This document shows positions 8,057-44,067 of a stretch of 64,000 bases of DNA, in pieces. Both the position numbers and the translations under genes were made by a program. Position 1 is the stretch's first letter, and every line of letters starts with the position of its first letter. The stretch comes from an uncultured Alphaproteobacteria bacterium. Lineage in GTDB: Bacteria > Pseudomonadota > Alphaproteobacteria > Rhodobacterales > Rhodobacteraceae. A model generated the notes under the pieces. That model was not told the DNA's origin. It worked only from the letters and a program-made list of their open reading frames with translations, and did not search any database. The stretch lies in assembly GCA_902625475.1 (NCBI GenBank), contig CACOBR010000003.1:62001-126000 (forward strand), written 5' to 3'.

Positions 8057-8797
8057 ATGAATTGGACTGACGAAGGACTTTTATTAAGTGTTAAACCGCA
8101 TGGAGAAAGAGCAGCAGTTATTCAAGTTTTAACTGAAAATAAAGGTCTTCATGCTGGATTAATCCAAAATGCTTTTTCGAGAAAAATGAATTCTACTTTA
8201 CAACCTTCTAATCAACTCCATTTAAATTGGTCTAGTCGGTTAGAAGAACATTTAGGAATTTACAAAGCTGATTTATTAAGGAGCAGAGTTGATATTTTTT
8301 TATATAATAAGCTTGCTTTAGATGTTTTTAATACAATATCTGCTCTTTGTTTGTCGACGTTAGCTGAAAGAGATCCAATACCTGGACTATATAAAAATAC
8401 TACAAATTTTCTTGACCAAATAACTAATATAAAAAAATGGGAATTTTTTTATATTCATTGGGAATTGAATTTATTAGCATCTTTAGGTTACGGTCTTGAT
8501 TTAAAAAAATGTGCTGCGACTGGTACCACAGAAAATCTTTTTTATATTTCGCCCAAATCTGGGAAGGCTGTTTGTAAAGAAAAGGGTTTTAAATATGATA
8601 AAAAACTTCTACGTTTTCCTACAATTTTGAGGGATGTAGGAAAAAATTATGAATTTAATCGGTCGGATTTATTAGATGGGTTAAAAATAACAGGTTTTTT
8701 TTTAAAAAAATGCCTTATTGATTCCCTACAGAATAATCAGACTATAACTATAAGACAAAGATTAATCGATACCCTATCTAATGAGGAAAATACCTGA
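8057..8797 (+). CDS. recO: DNA repair protein RecO
   Basis: DEGLLLSVKPHGERAAVIQVLTENKGLHAGLI and core gene order. Confidence 0.92.
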   Translation: MNWTDEGLLLSVKPHGERAAVIQVLTENKGLHAGLIQNAFSRKMNSTLQPSNQLHLNWSSRLEEHLGIYKADLLRSRVDIFLYNKLALDVFNTISALCLSTLAERDPIPGLYKNTTNFLDQITNIKKWEFFYIHWELNLLASLGYGLDLKKCAATGTTENLFYISPKSGKAVCKEKGFKYDKKLLRFPTILRDVGKNYEFNRSDLLDGLKITGFFLKKCLIDSLQNNQTITIRQRLIDTLSNEENT

Positions 8798-8841
8798 TTT
8801 AAGCCATATAAATAGGGGTTTTAATTTTCTATTTCTCTGAA

Positions 8842-8955
8842 AAAGGCTCAAAAGGTGGAGTAAAAGGTGGACTTTTTCAACTTTTCATTTCCAATATGAC
8901 AGATATGACACTTATGACACCCACCCCCAGCCATATCCTTGAGGGTACCCAGAAA
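8842..8955 (+). repeat. dispersed intergenic repeat, copy 1 (left half)
   Basis: ..AAGGTGGACTTTTTCAACTTTTCATTTCCAATATGACAGATATGACACTTATGACACCCACCCCCAGCCATATCCTTGAGGGTACCC.. Confidence 0.85.
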
Positions 8956-9056
8956 TTCATCATTAGTTATTTCGATATACTTGATAAGTATTGAAATAAA
9001 AACACATAAAAATTACTATTATCAATATTAAAAATATAAGATAACCAAGGATTAAA

Positions 9057-13080: not shown

Positions 13081-13220
13081 CGATGAGAAAATGGTCGATT
13101 CCCTAGTAGTTATCAAGGGGGACTTTAAGGGGGAGAATTTTGAGTTTTCGTTTTCAATATGACACTTATGACACCCACCCCTAAGACATATCCTTGAGGG
13201 CACCCCCAAAAACCACAAGT
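13081..13220 (+). repeat. dispersed intergenic repeat, copy 2
   Basis: ..GTTATCAAGGGGGACTTTAAGGGGG..GAGTTTTCGTTTTCAATATGACACTTATGACACCCACCCCTAAGACATATCCTTGAGGGCACCCCCAAAAACCA.. Confidence 0.9.
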
Positions 13221-15029: not shown

Positions 15030-15150
15030 TTAAAATACACTTAATACCTCTAAAACATATCCTTGAGGGTACCCCAAAAACCATAGCATATTGTTAGCAA
15101 GTACGACTACTCACACATTTTGGGTATGAATATAAAAATCTTTAATCTTC
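15030..15150 (+). repeat. dispersed intergenic repeat, copy 3
   Basis: ..ACATATCCTTGAGGGTACCCCAAAAACCATAGCATATTGTTAGCAAGTACGACTACTCACACATTTTGGGTATG..ATCTTTAATCTTC. Confidence 0.9.
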
Positions 15151-16279: not shown

Positions 16280-16400
16280 AAACCCCATTCCTAAAACTCA
16301 TAGCCTGTTATTAGCAAGTACTACTGCTCACACATTTTGGGTGGGGAAGGTAAACATCTCTAATCTTCACACATAAGATATTTCATGTAATATTATTCTG
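16280..16400 (+). repeat. dispersed intergenic repeat, copy 4 (right half plus extension)
   Basis: CATAGCCTGTTATTAGCAAGTACTACTGCTCACACATTTTGGGTGGGGAAGGTAAACATCTCTAATCTTC.. Confidence 0.88.
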
Positions 16401-18739: not shown

Positions 18740-18815
18740 AGCACTACATCCACCCCTAAGACATATCCTTGAGGGTGCCCCAAAAAACCCAAAGTATATA
18801 TATTGGTAAGTAGTA
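18740..18815 (+). repeat. dispersed intergenic repeat, copy 5
   Basis: ACTACATCCACCCCTAAGACATATCCTTGAGGGTGCCCCAAAAAACC. Confidence 0.85.
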
Positions 18816-21028: not shown

Positions 21029-21130
21029 AAGGTGGCCTTTTTTGAGTTTTCGTTTCAAGATGTCACACATGTCATCCACCCCTAAGGCATATTCTTAAGG
21101 TTACCCCAAAAACCTTTAATTGTTGTTAGA
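21029..21130 (+). repeat. dispersed intergenic repeat, copy 6
   Basis: AAGGTGGCCTTTTTTGAGTTTTCGTTTCAAGATGTCACACATGTCATCCACCCCTAAGGCATATTCTTAAGGTTACCCCAAAAACC. Confidence 0.85.
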
Positions 21131-21206
21131 TAATAATAATAACTAATCTATAAAAATAGAAATACATCTGAACAAAAAAAATAATTGGAAATTAATTATA
21201 ATAAGA

Positions 21207-22717: not shown

Positions 22718-23620
22718 TTAAAGGTACTTTAAACCACTATCGCAACCAAAAGTAACAATATTTTGCTTAGGCGACATCTTCCGTGCAAGCTTAATTGCTC
22801 CAACAACATTCATACCCGTTGATGTGCCACAGAAGATACCATGTTTTTGGGCAAGGACTTTTCTCATCTCAAAAGCTTTTACTTGATCTACTGCATAAAA
22901 TTGATTAACACGTCTAGTGTCTAAAAATGGAGGATAAAAGCCAACACCAACACCTTCAACCTGATGAGATCCTCCACAGCCTTTAGTCAGCAAGGGAGAC
23001 TGAGTCGGTTCAAAGGCTATAACATTTGGAAATTCATCTTTTTTATTTAACCCTTCGAGAGTTCCCATCAGAGCTCCCCCAGTTCCTACTGATGCACAAA
23101 GCAAATCAACTTTGCCTTCTATTTGTTGAGCAATCTCAAAACCCATTGGTTGATACCCTAGCACTACATCCTTTGAACCAAATTGGTCTGCATAAAAACC
23201 ATTTATTTTATCAACTTTTTCATGAGCAAGTTCTTTCATTTTTTTAATAAGTTCTGGTGAGATTCCTTTTCCATAGGACGGAACTACAATAACCTCTGCA
23301 CCAAATGCCTCCATTGCAAGCTGTTTCGAATGAGAAAAAGCGTCTGAAAATATAGCAGTGAACTTTATACCTGAACAAGCACATGCAAAAGCCAGCGCAG
23401 AGCCAGTACTACCACCAGTATATTCTACTACCGTCTGGCTCAAAGTTAAATTTCCTTTACGGATAGCTTCCCCGATTACAGAGATCGCCATTCGATCTTT
23501 GTAGGAACCTGTTGGGTTACCGCTCTCAACCTTTAACCAAATTGAAGCACCTTCATCTGGTTTTAAAACATCGAGTTTTATTAGAGGCGTATTCCCTACT
23601 TGTTTAAAAGAACTTTGCAT
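22718..23620 (-). CDS. cysteine synthase-like PLP-dependent enzyme
   Basis: GNTPLIKL, NPTGSYKDRMA (PLP Lys), EYTGGSTGSALAF. Confidence 0.85.
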   Translation of the reverse strand: MQSSFKQVGNTPLIKLDVLKPDEGASIWLKVESGNPTGSYKDRMAISVIGEAIRKGNLTLSQTVVEYTGGSTGSALAFACACSGIKFTAIFSDAFSHSKQLAMEAFGAEVIVVPSYGKGISPELIKKMKELAHEKVDKINGFYADQFGSKDVVLGYQPMGFEIAQQIEGKVDLLCASVGTGGALMGTLEGLNKKDEFPNVIAFEPTQSPLLTKGCGGSHQVEGVGVGFYPPFLDTRRVNQFYAVDQVKAFEMRKVLAQKHGIFCGTSTGMNVVGAIKLARKMSPKQNIVTFGCDSGLKYL

Positions 23621-23813
23621 TGAGAATTAAATCCCCTACTTTTATAGAAATAAAATAATATTTCTAGTACTATTACAACAAATATCGCAATCATTACAAT
23701 TATGTTAAAGAAGGTCTGAGACCTCTAATCTTAAAATGCGTCACTTATCAGCTACTTCTCTACAAGCATAGTATACTTGAACTTCACGTTTCTTAGCATA
23801 GTCAAGTAAAAAG

Positions 23814-23867
23814 TGATCGGGGTGATTGGATTCGAACCTACGACCTATGGTACTCCAAAAGCCATAG
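23814..23867 (-). pseudogene. tRNA-Pro-like 3' remnant (anticodon-arm-like hairpin, T-arm and acceptor 3' strand)
   Basis: Reverse strand CTATGGCTTTTGGAGTACCATAGGTCGTAGGTTCGAATCCAATCACCCCGATCA: contains GGTTCGAATCC and CACCCCG acceptor strand as in bacterial tRNA-Pro; no 5' half (D-arm) seen. Confidence 0.7.
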
Positions 23868-23890
23868 CCTATTATTAGCACGTATTCCTC
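23846..23890 (+). repeat. dispersed intergenic repeat, copy 7 (right half joined to tRNA-Pro-like remnant)
   Basis: TATGGTACTCCAAAAGCCATAGCCTATTATTAGCACGTATTCCTC. Confidence 0.85.
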
Positions 23891-23912: not shown

Positions 23913-25385
23913 TTAGATCTCGTATATATCAGAAAATTTTTCGTCTAAATAATTTAAAAATGGCTCAGGAGTTAAGTCTTTTCCTGTAGCTTTTTTGATT
24001 AAGTCAGCAGGTTCGAATAGGCTTCCATGCTGATGTATGTTCTCTGTTAACCAAGTGGTTGCTAATGACACGTCACCTTTCTCAAATCTGTCTGCAAGAC
24101 TAGGGATATCTTTTCGCATCTTTTCAAATAGACAACCGGCATTTAAGTTACCTAAAGTGTAGGTTGGAAAATATCCAAATGCGCCGATTGACCAATGAAC
24201 GTCCTGGAGAATACCATCAGAGAATTTTTCTACATCACGACCAAAATAATCCTTGAATTTTACATTCCATGCTTCAGGCAAATCAGGAACTTCCAAATTT
24301 TTTCCAATCACCTCTACTTCGAGCTCAAAGCGAAGCATAATATGTAGATTGTAGTGAACTTCGTCTGCTTCGGTTCTAATAAAACCAGTCTCAACCTTAT
24401 TAACCAAACGGTAGAATTCTTCCTCATCTCTAATACCAAATTCTCCAAAATAGCTTTTCATTTTTTTGAACAGCCACTTTGTGAATTGCCTAGATCTTCC
24501 TATTTGGTTTTCAAATATCCTAGACTGGCTCTCGTGAATACCTAAGGACACGCCAGAGCCGAGAGGCGAGTGTAAAAAGTCTGAAGATACGTTTTGCTCA
24601 TAGCATGCGTGCCCCACTTCGTGAATAGTACTGTATAAACAGTTAAATGGGTCCTTACTATCGACTCTGGTTGTAATTCGCACATCATCTCCACCACCTG
24701 AACAAAAAGGATGCGCTACAGTATCAATCCTTCCTCTATCAAAATCATAGAAAAATGTCTTCGCTATTTCATGGGCTAGTTTTAATTGTTTTTCCGTATT
24801 AAAGTCGCCTTCTAATACGGGTTTAGAAAGCTTTGTTTCACTTATTCTCTGCCGTAAATCTAAAAGTCTTGGCTTCATTTCTTCAAAAATACTGGCAGTC
24901 TCTTTTTTTGTCATTCCAAATTCGTAATCATTTATTAACCCATCGTATAAATCTCCAGTTGGAGATAAAAGAGATGCCTCTTCTCTCTTTAAATCAATTA
25001 TCTTCTTTAAGTGAGGTGAAAACTCAGAAAAATCATTATTTTGTCTAGACTTTTGCCAGGCCATTTGAGCTAAGGATGTGGTTGCAGCCAAATCAGACGC
25101 GAGTTCGCTTGGTATAGCTACCGCTCTGTCAAAGTCTCTTTTTATTAGTGTGTATGCTCTTTTTTGAAAAGTTGTTTTAGGTTCGGCTTCTTCCAATAAC
25201 TTTCTGACTTTTGAATTTTTCTTTCTTTCGTGAATAACTTCCTCAAGGGCACCCATCTCCAATGCCCGAGAATTACCACTCTTAGATGGCATCATTGTCT
25301 CCTGATCCCAGGCATTTCTACCAGCTACGGATTGAAGTAAACTAGTCGTTCTATTAAAACTGATCAGCTGATCTATAGCGTTCAT
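23913..25385 (-). CDS. M32 family carboxypeptidase (Taq type)
   Basis: STIHEVGHACYEQ (HExxH variant HEVGH) and GIHESQSRIFENQIGRS motifs. Confidence 0.93.
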   Translation of the reverse strand: MNAIDQLISFNRTTSLLQSVAGRNAWDQETMMPSKSGNSRALEMGALEEVIHERKKNSKVRKLLEEAEPKTTFQKRAYTLIKRDFDRAVAIPSELASDLAATTSLAQMAWQKSRQNNDFSEFSPHLKKIIDLKREEASLLSPTGDLYDGLINDYEFGMTKKETASIFEEMKPRLLDLRQRISETKLSKPVLEGDFNTEKQLKLAHEIAKTFFYDFDRGRIDTVAHPFCSGGGDDVRITTRVDSKDPFNCLYSTIHEVGHACYEQNVSSDFLHSPLGSGVSLGIHESQSRIFENQIGRSRQFTKWLFKKMKSYFGEFGIRDEEEFYRLVNKVETGFIRTEADEVHYNLHIMLRFELEVEVIGKNLEVPDLPEAWNVKFKDYFGRDVEKFSDGILQDVHWSIGAFGYFPTYTLGNLNAGCLFEKMRKDIPSLADRFEKGDVSLATTWLTENIHQHGSLFEPADLIKKATGKDLTPEPFLNYLDEKFSDIYEI

Positions 25386-25599: not shown

Positions 25600-25792
25600 A
25601 TTATGATAAGTACGATAAAAAGATGGTTGATACTCTAGTAGCAATCCAAGGGTGATAAAAGGGGGACTTTTTTGAGTCTTCGTTTCCAATATGACACTTA
25701 TGACATCCACATCTAAGACATATCCTTGATGCCACCCCAAAAACTATAGCCAATTGTAAGAAAGTATTACTACTCATACATTTTGGTTTGGG
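25600..25792 (+). repeat. dispersed intergenic repeat, copy 8 (longest, near full length)
   Basis: ATGATAAGTACGATAAAAAGATGGTTGATACTCTAGTAGCAATCCAAGGGTGATAAAAGGGGGACTTTTTTGAGTCTTCGTTTCCAATATGACACTTATGACATCCAC..CATTTTGGTTTGGG. Confidence 0.9.
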
Positions 25793-26099
25793 ATAACTTA
25801 ATTTAAATTAACTAAAATATACCAAAAAAAGTAGCTATTAATTTTACAATTTCTTATTGTCTTTTAACAATATCTTTTTCTTCTAACTTTTCAAAGTGAG
25901 ATAAAATATCAATAGTCTTTCTATTTGCTAGTTCTGTTTGACTGGATGAATTACTTATTAAAAATTTTATTACAAAATTTGTATACCCTATAATTTATTT
26001 GATAATACAAATATTAGAAAAATTTTTTCATACCCAAAGGCCAGTGAAATCGATCTGTTAACACGATATTTACATGTCTAACCTGAAAAGGTGTCTTGG

Positions 26100-28925: not shown

Positions 28926-28990
28926 GAGCAATATGATAATCCCCGAGGGTTACCCTAAAAACCATGGCCTATCATAAGCAAGAAATATGA
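28926..28990 (+). repeat. dispersed intergenic repeat, copy 9
   Basis: CCCCGAGGGTTACCCTAAAAACCATGGCCTATCATAAGCAAG. Confidence 0.78.
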
Positions 28991-30155: not shown

Positions 30156-30270
30156 AAATATGATACTTATGAAACTCATGTCACCCGCCCCTAAGATATA
30201 TCCTTGATGGCAACACAAAAACCATAGCAAATTATTAGCAAGTGCCACAGCTCATATATTTTGGTTGGAA
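30156..30270 (+). repeat. dispersed intergenic repeat, copy 10
   Basis: ATATGATACTTATGAAACTCATGTCACCCGCCCCTAAGATATATCCTTGATGGCAACACAAAAACCATAGCAAATTATTAGCAAGTGCCACAGCTCATATATTTTGGTTGG. Confidence 0.88.
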
Positions 30271-30321
30271 AAAATAATTATTAACTATTTAATAGTTCAA
30301 AATTTATTTTTGTAATCATTA

Positions 30322-31071
30322 TTGAATTTAAAGGTAATTAACATGAATAATCTTAAAGAAAAAAAAGCCTTAATAATAGGAGCTAGTGGTGGAATGGGGA
30401 CTGCTGTGGCATCGATGCTTTCAAAAAATGGTGTTCATTGTTTCTTAGTTGGACGAAGTCAAGAAAAACTGAATGATATTTTTTCAAGTTGTTCTTCATA
30501 TGGAAACCCTTGTTTTATGTTCTCATGTGATATTTCAAATATGACTGAAATTAAAAAATGTTCAGAAAATGCAATTAAAAGTCTTGGTGGATTGAATTTT
30601 CTTATTCATTGTGCTGGCAATTATAATAAAGCTTTAGCTGATGAATGTGATCTAGAAATTTGGGATAAAATAATAGATACAAATTTGCGTAGTACTTATC
30701 ATTTTGCAAGAAACGTTCTTCCAGAAATAAATAAAAATTCTGGTGGTGCTGTAATTAGAATTAATTCAAGAGATGCTCCATATACTGGGATAGGCATCCA
30801 AACGTCTCAGAAACGAGGTATTGATGGATATATGGAAGTATTATTTGAGGATGTTAGAGAATATGGAACAAAAGTCTGCACAATTAATCCAGGATTTGTT
30901 GATACCTCTATGGTTAACCCTGAACGATTAAATCCTGAACTTATGATGCAACCGAATGATATAGCTGAAGCAGTTAATTTTGTTCTTAATACTTCAGAAA
31001 CTGCCTGTCCAACTGAAATATTAATACAGCCGCAGCGATCTCCATGGAAGAAAGCTGATATGCACATATAA
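30322..31071 (+). CDS. short-chain dehydrogenase/reductase
   Basis: IIGASGGMGTAVA (TGxxxGxG variant) and SDR fold; canonical YxxxK is replaced by TSQKR. Start could be ATG 30343. Confidence 0.8.
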   Translation: MNLKVINMNNLKEKKALIIGASGGMGTAVASMLSKNGVHCFLVGRSQEKLNDIFSSCSSYGNPCFMFSCDISNMTEIKKCSENAIKSLGGLNFLIHCAGNYNKALADECDLEIWDKIIDTNLRSTYHFARNVLPEINKNSGGAVIRINSRDAPYTGIGIQTSQKRGIDGYMEVLFEDVREYGTKVCTINPGFVDTSMVNPERLNPELMMQPNDIAEAVNFVLNTSETACPTEILIQPQRSPWKKADMHI

Positions 31072-31165
31072 CATACACCCCTAAGACATATCTTTGAGGG
31101 TAGAGCAAAAACCATAGCCTATTTTACCAAATACGACTGCTAACACATTTTGGTTTGGGGTGGGT
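31066..31165 (+). repeat. dispersed intergenic repeat, copy 11
   Basis: ACACCCCTAAGACATATCTTTGAGGGTAGAGCAAAAACCATAGCCTATTTTACCAAATACGACTGCTAACACATTTTGGTTTGGGG. Confidence 0.88.
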
Positions 31166-31404
31166 TGGTTTTTTTATTATTTAAAGTCAAAAATAACACA
31201 TCAAGGTTGAATTTAGTTATATTAAAATCAAAATTTACTCATCCAAAATAAAATCTTACGTCAGGTAATGGTTGCTGCCAACAAAATATTTTACTTTATT
31301 AGTTGAGCCAGCTTTAGTCAGCATAGGTAGTTTTAGAAATTTAATTATACCTAAATCTTTTAAAAATTTACGAAAATTAATTCTTGATATGGGGGAAATA
31401 AATA

Positions 31405-31839: not shown

Positions 31840-31969
31840 TAACTCTGACAATACAATATTTGTAGATACTATAAATGGTAGAATACTTAATTTACTCATA
31901 ATTATTTATACCAATCTTCTTGTTTTTATAAATAGGGTGAAAAGTTTAAATAAAATCTAGATTGTTTTG

Positions 31970-32085
31970 GTTTTAACATAACTAACATAACACCTACTCC
32001 TAAGACGTATCCTTGGGGGTAGGATACCACAAAAACCTATTATTATTTTAGTAAGTACTACCGCTCACATATTTTGGTTGTAAAG
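31970..32085 (+). repeat. dispersed intergenic repeat, copy 12
   Basis: AACATAACACCTACTCCTAAGACGTATCCTTGGGGGTAGGATACCACAAAAACC..AGTAAGTACTACCGCTCACATATTTTGGTTG. Confidence 0.85.
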
Positions 32086-32173
32086 TTAAGGAAGTCTGAT
32101 CTTTTCAGATAAAAATTTTTGAGTCATTATTAAAAACTAATGAGAATCTTGTGTATATGTGTTCTTTTAGTAA

Positions 32174-33459: not shown

Positions 33460-33530
33460 AGGTAGGATACCCCAAACACGATAGCCTATATTAGCAAGTA
33501 CTTCTGCTAACACATTTTTGTTTGGATAAG
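33460..33530 (+). repeat. dispersed intergenic repeat, copy 13 (right half)
   Basis: GGTAGGATACCCCAAACACGATAGCCTATATTAGCAAGTACTTCTGCTAACACATTTTTGTTTGGA. Confidence 0.85.
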
Positions 33531-33616
33531 TAAAGCTAATGATTAAAATATGAATCATAGCCTTAACGTAACGTCATGTTTGAAGTAAATAGTGGCTTTA
33601 CCTAACATCTTTTTAA

Positions 33617-35461
33617 ATGGGGAAGTTAATGGCTGAAAAAGAAATAGATCGTAAAGTCGCAATTATTTTAGCTACGGATGTTGTTAATTATAGTAAACAC
33701 ATGGAAGCTAATGAGAGTGAGTCGGTTAAGAACCTTCGTGCCTGTGAGCTTATCTTACAAAAATTTATAAAAAAACATGATGGTCGTCTTTTTAATTCTG
33801 GAGGTGACTCTTTCTTTATTGAATTTCCAAGTGCTGTGGAAGCGGTTGAATGCGCAGTAGCTTTTCAAAAGGATATTAAGAAAAGAAATAGTTCTGATAT
33901 AATCACAGTTCCTTTAGAGTTCAGAATAGGGATTAGTATGGGAGATGTGATTAAAGAGAAAGAAAATCTCTTAGGCGATGGTGTAAATATAGCTGCTCGG
34001 TTAGAAGCTTTAGCTCAAAGAAATGGGATAACTATTTCAAAAAACATCTATGATTTAGTTAAAGCAAAAACTTCTCATCAATATAATGACTTAGGTATTC
34101 AAAAGGTTAAAAAGAATGAATTTCACGCTTATGATATTCTCATTGACCCATCACAAAAAAGAAAAATTAAAACGCAAAAATCGAATAAGCCTCTTTTAGC
34201 AATAGCAGCCTCTTTTCTAGTGATAGCAGTTGTAAGTTTTTTATATATAACCCAAGTAAATAAATCGAAATCTACTTCAGATATTTCTTCATTGAATACT
34301 ATATTAGTATACCCTTTTAAAAATATTACTGATCCTGAAAATAAAAATAGATTTAGTGAGGCATTAACAGAAAGTATGATAGGTAGTTTGTCCAGATATA
34401 AAGGAATTAGGACTTTATCTAGTAGTACTAGTTTTTTTGTCAAAGAAAATGAAATGAGTCCCAGTGAAATTTTTAATAAATATGCAGTAAATTTTATAGT
34501 TACAGGCTCAATTCAAACATTTGGCGATAACTCAAGGATAAATTTAGAACTTACTGATGCCAAAAAAAATACTGTTGTTTGGTCAAATAAAATAGATTTT
34601 GAAATATCAGATATATTTAAAGCTCAAGAAAAAATAGGAAATGAGATTTTAGAATATTTACAAATTAATCTTGTGGCAGGATCTGGAACATTTGCTGAAA
34701 AGTTAGGAACACCCGAAAGGCTTATACTATCATTAAATGCAAGGGATGAGTGGAGAAAATTTAATCCTGAAGGATTTAATAAGTATAACGAGTTAACAAA
34801 CCAATTAGCTGAACAAATTGGTGAAGATAACCCCTTTATAATTCTTAACAGAGCATATGGTCTATTTCAAAAACTACGAATAGGATTATCAGAAGAACCT
34901 TCAAAGGATATTGAAAAACTTGATAAACTTTTAGACGACGTATTGGAATCAGATCTAAGAGTTAATGCATTACATTTTAAAGGGATTGTTGAACTTGTTT
35001 TCCTTTCAAAAGATTGTGATGTTGCAAAAGATTATGCAAAACAGGCGATTGAATTAGGAAGAACAGTTGATGCATATACAACAACAGGTACAATTTATTT
35101 TTTATGCAAAGATTATGATCTTTCTATCAAGAGTTTCAGAAACGCACTTGCTGTGGTTCCTAATGATAATGGTTGGTTTATTACAAGATATTTAGTTCCT
35201 TCAATGTATAGAGGTGGTTATATAGACGGAATTAAAACAATATTAGAACCTATAATTGATGCTACAGATATGCCTGCCAATTTATTAGCTTATTACTCAT
35301 TTATAAAAGTAAAAGAAGGCGATTTAGATTCAGCAAAATTATATTTTAAAAGAGCAAAGAATAGGGGTTTAACAAAAAAATATTTAACTAGATACGAAAT
35401 GGATGAAAACACATTTAGTGAATTTAAGAGTGAGTTAAAAATAATTGGTGAAATAGAATAA
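33617..35461 (+). CDS. class III adenylate/guanylate cyclase with TM segment, FlgO-like and TPR-like regions
   Basis: RKVAIILATDVVNYSKHM, FNSGGDSFFIEF and LLGDGVNIAARLEALA motifs; C-terminal TPR-like repeats. Confidence 0.88.
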   Translation: MGKLMAEKEIDRKVAIILATDVVNYSKHMEANESESVKNLRACELILQKFIKKHDGRLFNSGGDSFFIEFPSAVEAVECAVAFQKDIKKRNSSDIITVPLEFRIGISMGDVIKEKENLLGDGVNIAARLEALAQRNGITISKNIYDLVKAKTSHQYNDLGIQKVKKNEFHAYDILIDPSQKRKIKTQKSNKPLLAIAASFLVIAVVSFLYITQVNKSKSTSDISSLNTILVYPFKNITDPENKNRFSEALTESMIGSLSRYKGIRTLSSSTSFFVKENEMSPSEIFNKYAVNFIVTGSIQTFGDNSRINLELTDAKKNTVVWSNKIDFEISDIFKAQEKIGNEILEYLQINLVAGSGTFAEKLGTPERLILSLNARDEWRKFNPEGFNKYNELTNQLAEQIGEDNPFIILNRAYGLFQKLRIGLSEEPSKDIEKLDKLLDDVLESDLRVNALHFKGIVELVFLSKDCDVAKDYAKQAIELGRTVDAYTTTGTIYFLCKDYDLSIKSFRNALAVVPNDNGWFITRYLVPSMYRGGYIDGIKTILEPIIDATDMPANLLAYYSFIKVKEGDLDSAKLYFKRAKNRGLTKKYLTRYEMDENTFSEFKSELKIIGEIE

Positions 35462-39724: not shown

Positions 39725-40197
39725 AAGATTCTCCTTTATGATTTTTTTATATTCCTTTAGTCAAGTATTCAGTGCACTGCTGCCCATCCGGCATCTAGGT
39801 CGTAGTGAACTCTGGTATTATAGAATTTAATAATCCTTGTGCCTATAAAAAAATCTTGAATACACTTATTGTAGAAGAAAACTTAACTTTACTTTAGCAA
39901 CTTCTACTACGCACTATTATTTAGTTATTTTTGAGTTTATTTTTGTAAATTTAATATTCTTGCAAATCATTAAAGGTTATTGTATATATTTTTTGTTGCA
40001 GGGGGGATCTTTGATTTTCTAGACTTAGCGCTGAGCAAGCCTTAAGCCAAGCGAGTCACTGCAACACCATTTTTTAATTTTTAAATTACTGTTGATACCT
40101 CCGCTAACATATTTAAGGACGTAATTAATTATATATAAATATAAGTTTTTTTATTTACTAATTTAGAATGCATTTGAAAATTATGCTTACTTCATTT

Positions 40198-40285
40198 GTT
40201 AGTATGATAAGAAAACATATAGTGAACTAGTTGCTATTCAAAGTTCACAAAATAGGAACTTTTTTGTAGAACTTAGATAAAATAT
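40198..40285 (+). repeat. possible degenerate left end of the dispersed repeat
   Basis: AGTATGATAAGAAAACATATAGTGAACTAGTTGCTATTCAAAG.. compared with copy 8 left end. Confidence 0.4.
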
Positions 40286-40370
40286 AATAAGCTTGAAAAA
40301 GTTGATAGGAGGTTATCACTTTTTTTATTGTTTTTTTGGATGATAATAATCACTTTCCCCATTAATTTAA

Positions 40371-40545
40371 AGAGTAATCGATACCTAATCTAATGAGGAA
40401 AATACCTAATATAAACTTTATAGATAAAGTGCCCGATTTTTTTTATCTCTTAAAAGACTGAAAAAGCTGACTTAAAGGGGCAGTTCGTAAGAGTTTCATT
40501 TAAATTTGACAGTCAAGATACTTATAAAATCTACCCTTTGGATAT
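40371..40545 (+). repeat. recO 3'-end duplication plus degenerate repeat left half (copy 15)
   Basis: AGTAATCGATACCTAATCTAATGAGGAAAATACCTAAT aligns with ATTAATCGATACCCTATCTAATGAGGAAAATACCTGAT at 8761-8799; similarity continues into the repeat. Confidence 0.75.
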
Positions 40546-41149: not shown

Positions 41150-41360
41150 AGGTGTGCGGTAAAGGGTGTGGTTAGTTAATTTTTCATAATAATATGACAG
41201 TTATGACACCCACCCCTAAGACATATCTTTTAGGGCACCTCAAAAATCATAGCATATTTTATCAAGTACTACTGCTCAAATATTTTGGTTTGGAAAGCAA
41301 ACATCTCTAATCTTCCAATATAGTATATTTCGTATAATATTCTTTTATGAAAATTTTATT
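41150..41360 (+). repeat. dispersed intergenic repeat, copy 16 (plus extension shared with copy 4)
   Basis: AATATGACAGTTATGACACCCACCCCTAAGACATATCTTTTAGGGCACCTCAAAAATCATAGCATATTTTATCAAGTACTACTGCTCAAATATTTTGGTTTGGAAAGCAAACATCTCTAATCTTCC. Confidence 0.9.
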
Positions 41361-43931: not shown

Positions 43932-43980
43932 TATTAATATATTAGGAATTCGCGGGAAAGAGTTTTCAGATTTTCTGATG

Positions 43981-44045
43981 CTTCCACAATAACTATAGCA
44001 TATTTTAGTAATTTATTCTGCTTAAATATTTTGGTTTGGAAAGAT
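43981..44045 (+). repeat. dispersed intergenic repeat, copy 17 (right half)
   Basis: CACAATAACTATAGCATATTTTAGTAATTTATTCTGCTTAAATATTTTGGTTTGGAAAG. Confidence 0.75.
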
Positions 44046-44067
44046 GTGAGGCTTTTTTAAAAAGTTT

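Follow-up and report, generated by a model that had tools for sequence, protein, structure and literature searches.

How does half of a transfer RNA gene come to lie between two protein genes, fused to a sequence that recurs in the surrounding DNA? The question is raised by a short intergenic sequence (minus strand, 23813–23890) in the window, by which we mean the whole 64,000-nucleotide stretch of contig CACOBR010000003.1 analysed here. A first-pass annotation had taken this sequence for a hybrid: a copy of a common repeat in which one side is replaced by the end of a tRNA-Pro, the tRNA being cut at the anticodon loop and the whole being the fossil of an attachment site. The sequence it quoted is present letter for letter, and the form it gave for the common repeat is exactly the consensus of all copies, GGCTATGGTTTTTGGGGTACC, a pattern that occurs six times in the window where 0.02 occurrences are expected. 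A profile search (nhmmer) aligns window positions 23837–23889 with columns 52–111 of the repeat model (E = 1.4e-8) and so places the right (R) part of the hybrid in the repeat family. The part after GTACC, which had been described as a T-arm and acceptor strand, corresponds to the 3′ half of a tRNA-Pro(UGG): 41 of 46 bases are identical to tRNA positions 32–77, and 5′ of position 32 identity falls to 7 of 27. Against tRNA-Pro(UGG) genes of related genera (L033 and others) the hybrid, taken as an 88-mer, scores 67; the maximum over 300 shuffles and some 400 random 88-mers from the window is 28. The central guess is thus borne out, the match running through the loop and stopping there: the hybrid is a junction repeat of ∼150 bases that continues into the 3′ half of a tRNA-Pro gene, the cut falling precisely at the anticodon loop.

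ARAGORN and Rfam return no tRNA or other Rfam call on the hybrid, as it contains just half a tRNA. The hairpin that had been drawn between CTATGG and CCATAG can form, although its stability is no better than that of shuffled sequences (z = −0.22). A short open reading frame tail after the tRNA half (LLDYAKKREVQVYYACREVADK) has no match in Pfam. The gene for a PLP-dependent enzyme that lies on the tRNA side adjoins the same hybrid end in four congeners as well (G156, G159, G152 and G153). Coordinates of these and all other features are given in Table 1.

Table 1. Features of the recO-side array in the window
Feature	Position	Strand	Basis or remark
recO, anchor gene of the array	8057..8797	+	PF02565/PF11967; same position in G155, G156, G159, G152
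recO 3′ end and downstream block (attachment identity block)	8755..8870	+	copied many times in congener arrays
First repeat copy after recO, left arm	8866..8960	+	right side cassette-specific
Repeat copy, left arm	13129..13217	+	nhmmer
Repeat copy	15045..15140	+	
Repeat copy, right arm only	16290..16365	+	
Repeat copy	18743..18815	+	
Repeat copy	21031..21137	+	
PLP-dependent enzyme gene, cassette bearing the tRNA-Pro end	22718..23620	-	PF00291
Conserved flank 3′ of the tRNA half (ACTTTTTACTTAACTA...), common to congeners	23735..23813	-	alignment; BLAST first matched G091
3′ half of tRNA-Pro(UGG), positions 32–77, joined to the repeat at the anticodon loop	23814..23860	-	41/46 identical
Right (R) arm and core of the hybrid's repeat part; overlap with the tRNA half falls in the core	23837..23889	+	nhmmer
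M32 carboxypeptidase cassette, opposite side of the hybrid junction	23913..25385	-	
Integrase C-terminus remnant (YDKYDKKMVDTLVAIQG), directly upstream of a repeat copy	25602..25673	+	tblastn 75% over 24 aa, E 2.8e-4
Full repeat copy	25661..25794	+	
Degenerate repeat copy	28939..28982	+	
Repeat copy	30168..30280	+	
Repeat copy	31063..31172	+	
Repeat copy	31965..32101	+	
Repeat copy, right arm only	33464..33536	+	
recO 3′ end copy inside the array	40369..40478	+	74% over 111 nt, E 1e-12
Full repeat copy	41168..41311	+	
Last repeat copy, right arm	43976..44051	+	

The tRNA-Pro half is not confined to the window. Eight such halves were found in seven genomes (one each in that of the window, G152, G153, G155, G156 and G159, and two in G091), and all eight break at tRNA position 32, with 39–46 of 46 bases identical after it and 3–8 of 27 before position 28. 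Both G091 halves are identical at 46 of 46 bases to the working tRNA-Pro(UGG) of other genera and have different 5′ partners; that these independent junctions break at the same place supports the suggested crossover at the anticodon loop. The half in G155 sits on a different cassette with a different flank. Those of the window, G156, G159, G152 and G153 share the PLP-enzyme cassette, and these five hybrids may therefore descend from a single event. A chance or regulatory origin, such as a terminator, or an RNA element that ends like a tRNA, would suit an intergenic sequence that partly forms a hairpin, but it deserves virtually no credence: the tRNA match stands far above chance and is conserved in six congeners, Rfam has no match for the hybrid, the orientation of the repeats is independent of that of the genes, and the perfect G091 copies refute it.

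The first-pass annotation had assumed a local tRNA as the target, and this did not survive. The tRNA-Pro(UGG) of the same genome is of a different type and scores only 28; the best of the genome's own tRNAs, a tRNA-Arg, scores 31, no better than T-arm similarity, and own-genome tRNAs were rejected as the source. In this assembly, which is 66% complete, no intact cognate was found and no tRNA aligns with the hybrid through the anticodon loop, a result that the annotation had said would refute its reading; relatives nevertheless supply the source. The matching type sits in other genera and is intact among congeners only in G158, and in the 97% complete congener G091 the non-matching type alone is intact. 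To judge from its sequence, the half comes from the tRNA-Pro(UGG) of other genera in the family, which is probably one like the Rhodobacteraceae. Two types of tRNA-Pro(UGG) occur in the genus: a divergent one, lacking the fossil attachment sequence, in six members and the family type in one (G158); possibly the target was lost from the genus by replacement. Two further searches for an origin of the fragment were rejected, plasmids giving no match and phages giving short matches, mostly to annotated tRNA-Pro genes.

The annotation had also suggested that an integrase gene and the other half-site be sought. No integrase gene adjoins any tRNA-Pro half, and the tRNA-Pro 5′ half expected at a partner junction was not found. 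The intact family-type tRNA-Pro(UGG) of G158 is accompanied, ∼5.7 kb away, by a displaced 33-base 3′ end (G158:C31:8956-14719, L187), which is a second, T-arm-side type of integration at the same tRNA.

Halves of other tRNAs are present in the same arrays: 3′ halves of tRNA-Thr(UGU), starting at position 31–33, and 5′ halves of tRNA-Gln, extending to about position 36, both likewise cut at the anticodon loop. Crossover in this loop is an established habit of integrases, accounting for 2083 of 3919 islands in Islander (PMC4383910). Two tRNA-Ser(UGA) genes elsewhere carry elements of their own. At G000:C1:108790-111000 (L238) a decayed integrase lies between the gene and a displaced 5′ fragment (positions 1–39), the island here having a 5′ piece of the tRNA as its mark; at G159:C27:140-4814 (L174) the last 20 bases are duplicated with a 414-aa integrase between them, an ordinary 3′-end element bearing no relation to the repeat core.

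What, then, is the repeat to which the tRNA half is joined? A profile built from it recovered 180 copies in fetched regions of nine congeners. Read in array orientation, each junction comprises a left arm (ACCCACCCCTAAGACATATCCTTGAGGGTA), a core (CCCCAAAAACC) and a right arm (ATAGCCTATTATTAGCAAGTACTACTGCTCACACATTTTGG). Within the core, GGTACCCCAAAAACC parallels the reverse-read anticodon arm of tRNA-Pro(UGG), GGTACCCAAAACC, and because of this likeness repeat and tRNA-Pro half could be joined there. The proposal that the repeat as a whole derives from tRNA-Pro goes too far, since the resemblance is limited to GGTACCCCAAAAACC: the right arm has no tRNA similarity, and the left side in many copies includes a copied recO 3′ end with the DNA downstream of it. 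The arms are separable: the right one is missing from 33 copies and the left one from 35, with breaks clustering at model columns 67–75. Of the right-only copies 28/33, and of the left-only ones 17/33, retain the core motif, which control places show at a rate of 12%. Left and right halves thus occur apart, each with cassette-specific partners. Copies within a genome are no more alike than copies from different genomes; concerted evolution within genomes is thus not seen, and local gene conversion is not the cause of the patterns in the repeat. The exact repeat pattern was absent from viral contigs. A single exact match to the repeat core was found in a contig labelled Flavobacteriaceae MAG MED818 (L208, PAFO01000053.1); this is probably a binning error, otherwise a transfer.

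The copies form an array that begins ∼70 bp past recO in five genomes. The first cassette differs in all five (an acyl-transferase-like gene, an integrase element and three others), and congeners without an array at this place (G091, G150, G151, G157 and G158) have other DNA directly after recO. Every region with at least three copies has a single copy orientation (169 copies in 19 regions), whereas the genes between them point both ways, 142 with the array and 131 against it. Intervals between repeats have a median length of 1.35 kb, and 88 of 150 contain one gene. Genomes, all incomplete, hold from at least 15 to about 40 copies. Several of the array genomes (AG-414-O15, AG-404-G18, AG-910-B21 and AG-359-I23) we take to be single-cell genomes, and for contigs from these a binning error is therefore unlikely. 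Among the recurrent cassette genes is one whose product combines a cyclase domain with a long C-terminal region (PF00211; window 33617–35461), of which G155 has four diverged paralogues in one array.

Single-gene cassettes, sites of one orientation, shuffled order and a variable recO-proximal end are all what a chromosomal integron, with IntI, attC sites and a diverged integrase, would present. Such an integron is nonetheless very improbable, being contradicted on two defining features: IntI reached the curated cut-off in none of 12 (incomplete) genomes, the best score being 86 bits against a cut-off of 265, and no RYYYAAC/GTTRRRY pair occurs in 74 full copies, nor does either strand fold better than shuffled sequence.

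The element in the recO-proximal slot of G155 carries an intact 411-aa tyrosine integrase (Phage_integrase and Phage_int_SAM_3 domains, with a weak match to Arm-DNA-bind_4), after which come a recO tail and a repeat. Its other genes encode an AAA ATPase, a helix-turn-helix protein and what appears, from our reading of the sequence, to be a large glycine- and aspartate-rich repeat protein. recO 3′ ends lie on both sides of the slot, a layout that matches the classical picture of an element integrating at the 3′ end of a gene and restoring it. Traces of the same arrangement recur: in front of many left arms stands a copy of the final ∼14 recO codons with the DNA that follows them, and upstream of these tails lie remnants of integrase C-termini. 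The window contains both kinds of trace (Table 1); just upstream of its recO-tail copy, at 40176–40265, integrase-tail similarity is weak (E = 0.35 only).

Decayed relatives of the G155 integrase are also found ∼100–140 bp before displaced tRNA-Gln halves in G159, G091 and G158, halves that are again cut at the anticodon loop. One integrase family therefore touches both kinds of site, and from this link we infer that the tRNA-Pro joins are the work of a related integrase. A single intact integrase came to light among these incomplete genomes, and viral contigs contained no relatives. A search of 298 family genomes at E ≤ 1e-30 found none either, a threshold too strict to be telling, as it missed the known remnants of the genus too.

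The order of cassettes is almost completely reshuffled. Orthologous cassettes (85–99% amino acid identity) sit beside different neighbours in different genomes: 165 cross-genome pairs of copies share an orthologous neighbour (≥85% amino acid identity) and one pair shares both. Copies with a common left neighbour exceed background identity only in columns 1–45 (0.759 vs 0.630); those with a common right neighbour do so clearly only in columns 116–145 (0.862 vs 0.682), linkage in columns 83–115 being weak (0.803 vs 0.777, p = 0.03). Neighbour linkage did not pinpoint a single crossover and does not single out the core, columns 46–115 being unlinked throughout. A fixed single crossover at the core would leave linkage on both sides of it; the columns in between follow neither neighbour convincingly, so that exchange runs through a 70-bp block. 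One ∼twelve-gene block, collinear and 93–100% identical between G153 (G153b 14926) and G154 (4502), lies within otherwise shuffled arrays and suggests a recent transfer or a large cassette.

These data bear on two further explanations. The repeat might be a small transposon of the MITE kind that enters intergenic sites on its own, among them one next to an old tRNA-Pro fragment; it is indeed short, numerous and intergenic, and its middle is unlinked to its neighbours. We consider this unlikely given that no insertion was seen without a change of neighbour (1 of 165 pairs shares both), that orientation is strictly uniform within an array, and that left and right halves separate, each with its own cassette-specific partners. 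Alternatively, the repeats may be no more than short blocks of homology through which RecA-type recombination shuffles genes, the tRNA halves being passive leftovers of island decay. Many crossovers across the block would produce just the unlinked columns 46–115 that we see, and most array genomes show no integrase, so this explanation has a real though minor chance of being correct; it leaves unexplained the half copies that break at the core, the tRNA halves joined to the same core, the fixed start at recO, and the integrase and recO tails that precede repeats. Much of the shuffling is probably due to repeated homologous exchange within the conserved ∼70-bp block, and site-specific events are needed for the half copies and the tRNA fusions.

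We therefore favour, as the likely account, an additive island anchored at recO that has grown by the arrival of tyrosine-integrase elements, the hybrid being the end of a cassette derived from an element that targets tRNA-Pro. Such elements would integrate at the 3′ end of recO, the copied tail that each brings restoring the gene while the displaced tail stays behind, and repeated insertion would produce a chain of junction sequences in the same direction. Most cassettes would since have lost their integrase, leaving one or a few genes between junctions. At the hybrid junction the tRNA-Pro(UGG) 3′ half, cut at the anticodon loop, stands in place of the left arm: its cassette would have come from an element that used tRNA-Pro in another host and joined the array at the common core. 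The cassettes presumably move between cells.

More tentatively, the locus could be an integron-like cassette system that works without IntI or attC, holding single genes in either orientation while keeping one array direction by way of a two-armed site whose core copies a tRNA anticodon loop. A tyrosine-integrase element would supply it at the 3′ end of recO, and its cassettes would be shuffled throughout a marine population. In this way streamlined ocean bacteria may keep and trade individual adaptive genes with no need of integrons, beside recO at a fixed place that is easily typed, and the tRNA fossils would be a record of the attachment sites that fed the array. With a sharp break at the core set against a 70-bp zone of exchange, it can be tested directly how the work is divided between the integrase and homologous recombination.

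Additive flexible genomic islands are known at tRNA genes in Alteromonas (PMC4119200), and in fGI-2 of the Methylophilaceae the final 20 bp of tRNA-Lys recur as repeats (PMC10872708). As in these islands, cassettes are added at one fixed place, attachment remnants are repeated and cargo varies among strains, all three of which are found at the recO array; it differs in its anchor (the 3′ end of recO), its mostly single-gene cassettes, its two-armed junctions of ∼150 bp, its almost fully reshuffled order and its several tRNA anticodon-loop fossils. Prochlorococcus tycheposons, as PMC10872708 describes them, are comparable in their tyrosine recombinase, tRNA attachment sites and cargo suited to ocean life; an integrase and tRNA fragments are present here, but the array is anchored at a protein gene, recO, and has many cassettes devoid of an integrase. 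In anticodon-centred tRNA islands (Islander, PMC4383910) the end of an element is likewise marked by a tRNA fragment that has been displaced, with its cut at the anticodon loop, whereas here the fragment lies inside another array, far from a matching intact tRNA and with no adjacent integrase. Oriented sites, single-gene cassettes and shuffling recall chromosomal integrons and super-integrons, but IntI, the attC motif and its fold are missing, genes take both orientations and the arms separate at a central core: the array works in an integron-like manner and, on the features tested, is not a member of that class. Accretion of CIMEs and ICEs in Streptococcus yields cassettes that have att sites at both ends but no integrase, beside relatives that do carry one, and the recO array resembles it in both respects while differing in scale. 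The recO-anchored, reshuffled array with its tRNA fossils is a new form of additive genomic island (PMC4119200, PMC10872708).
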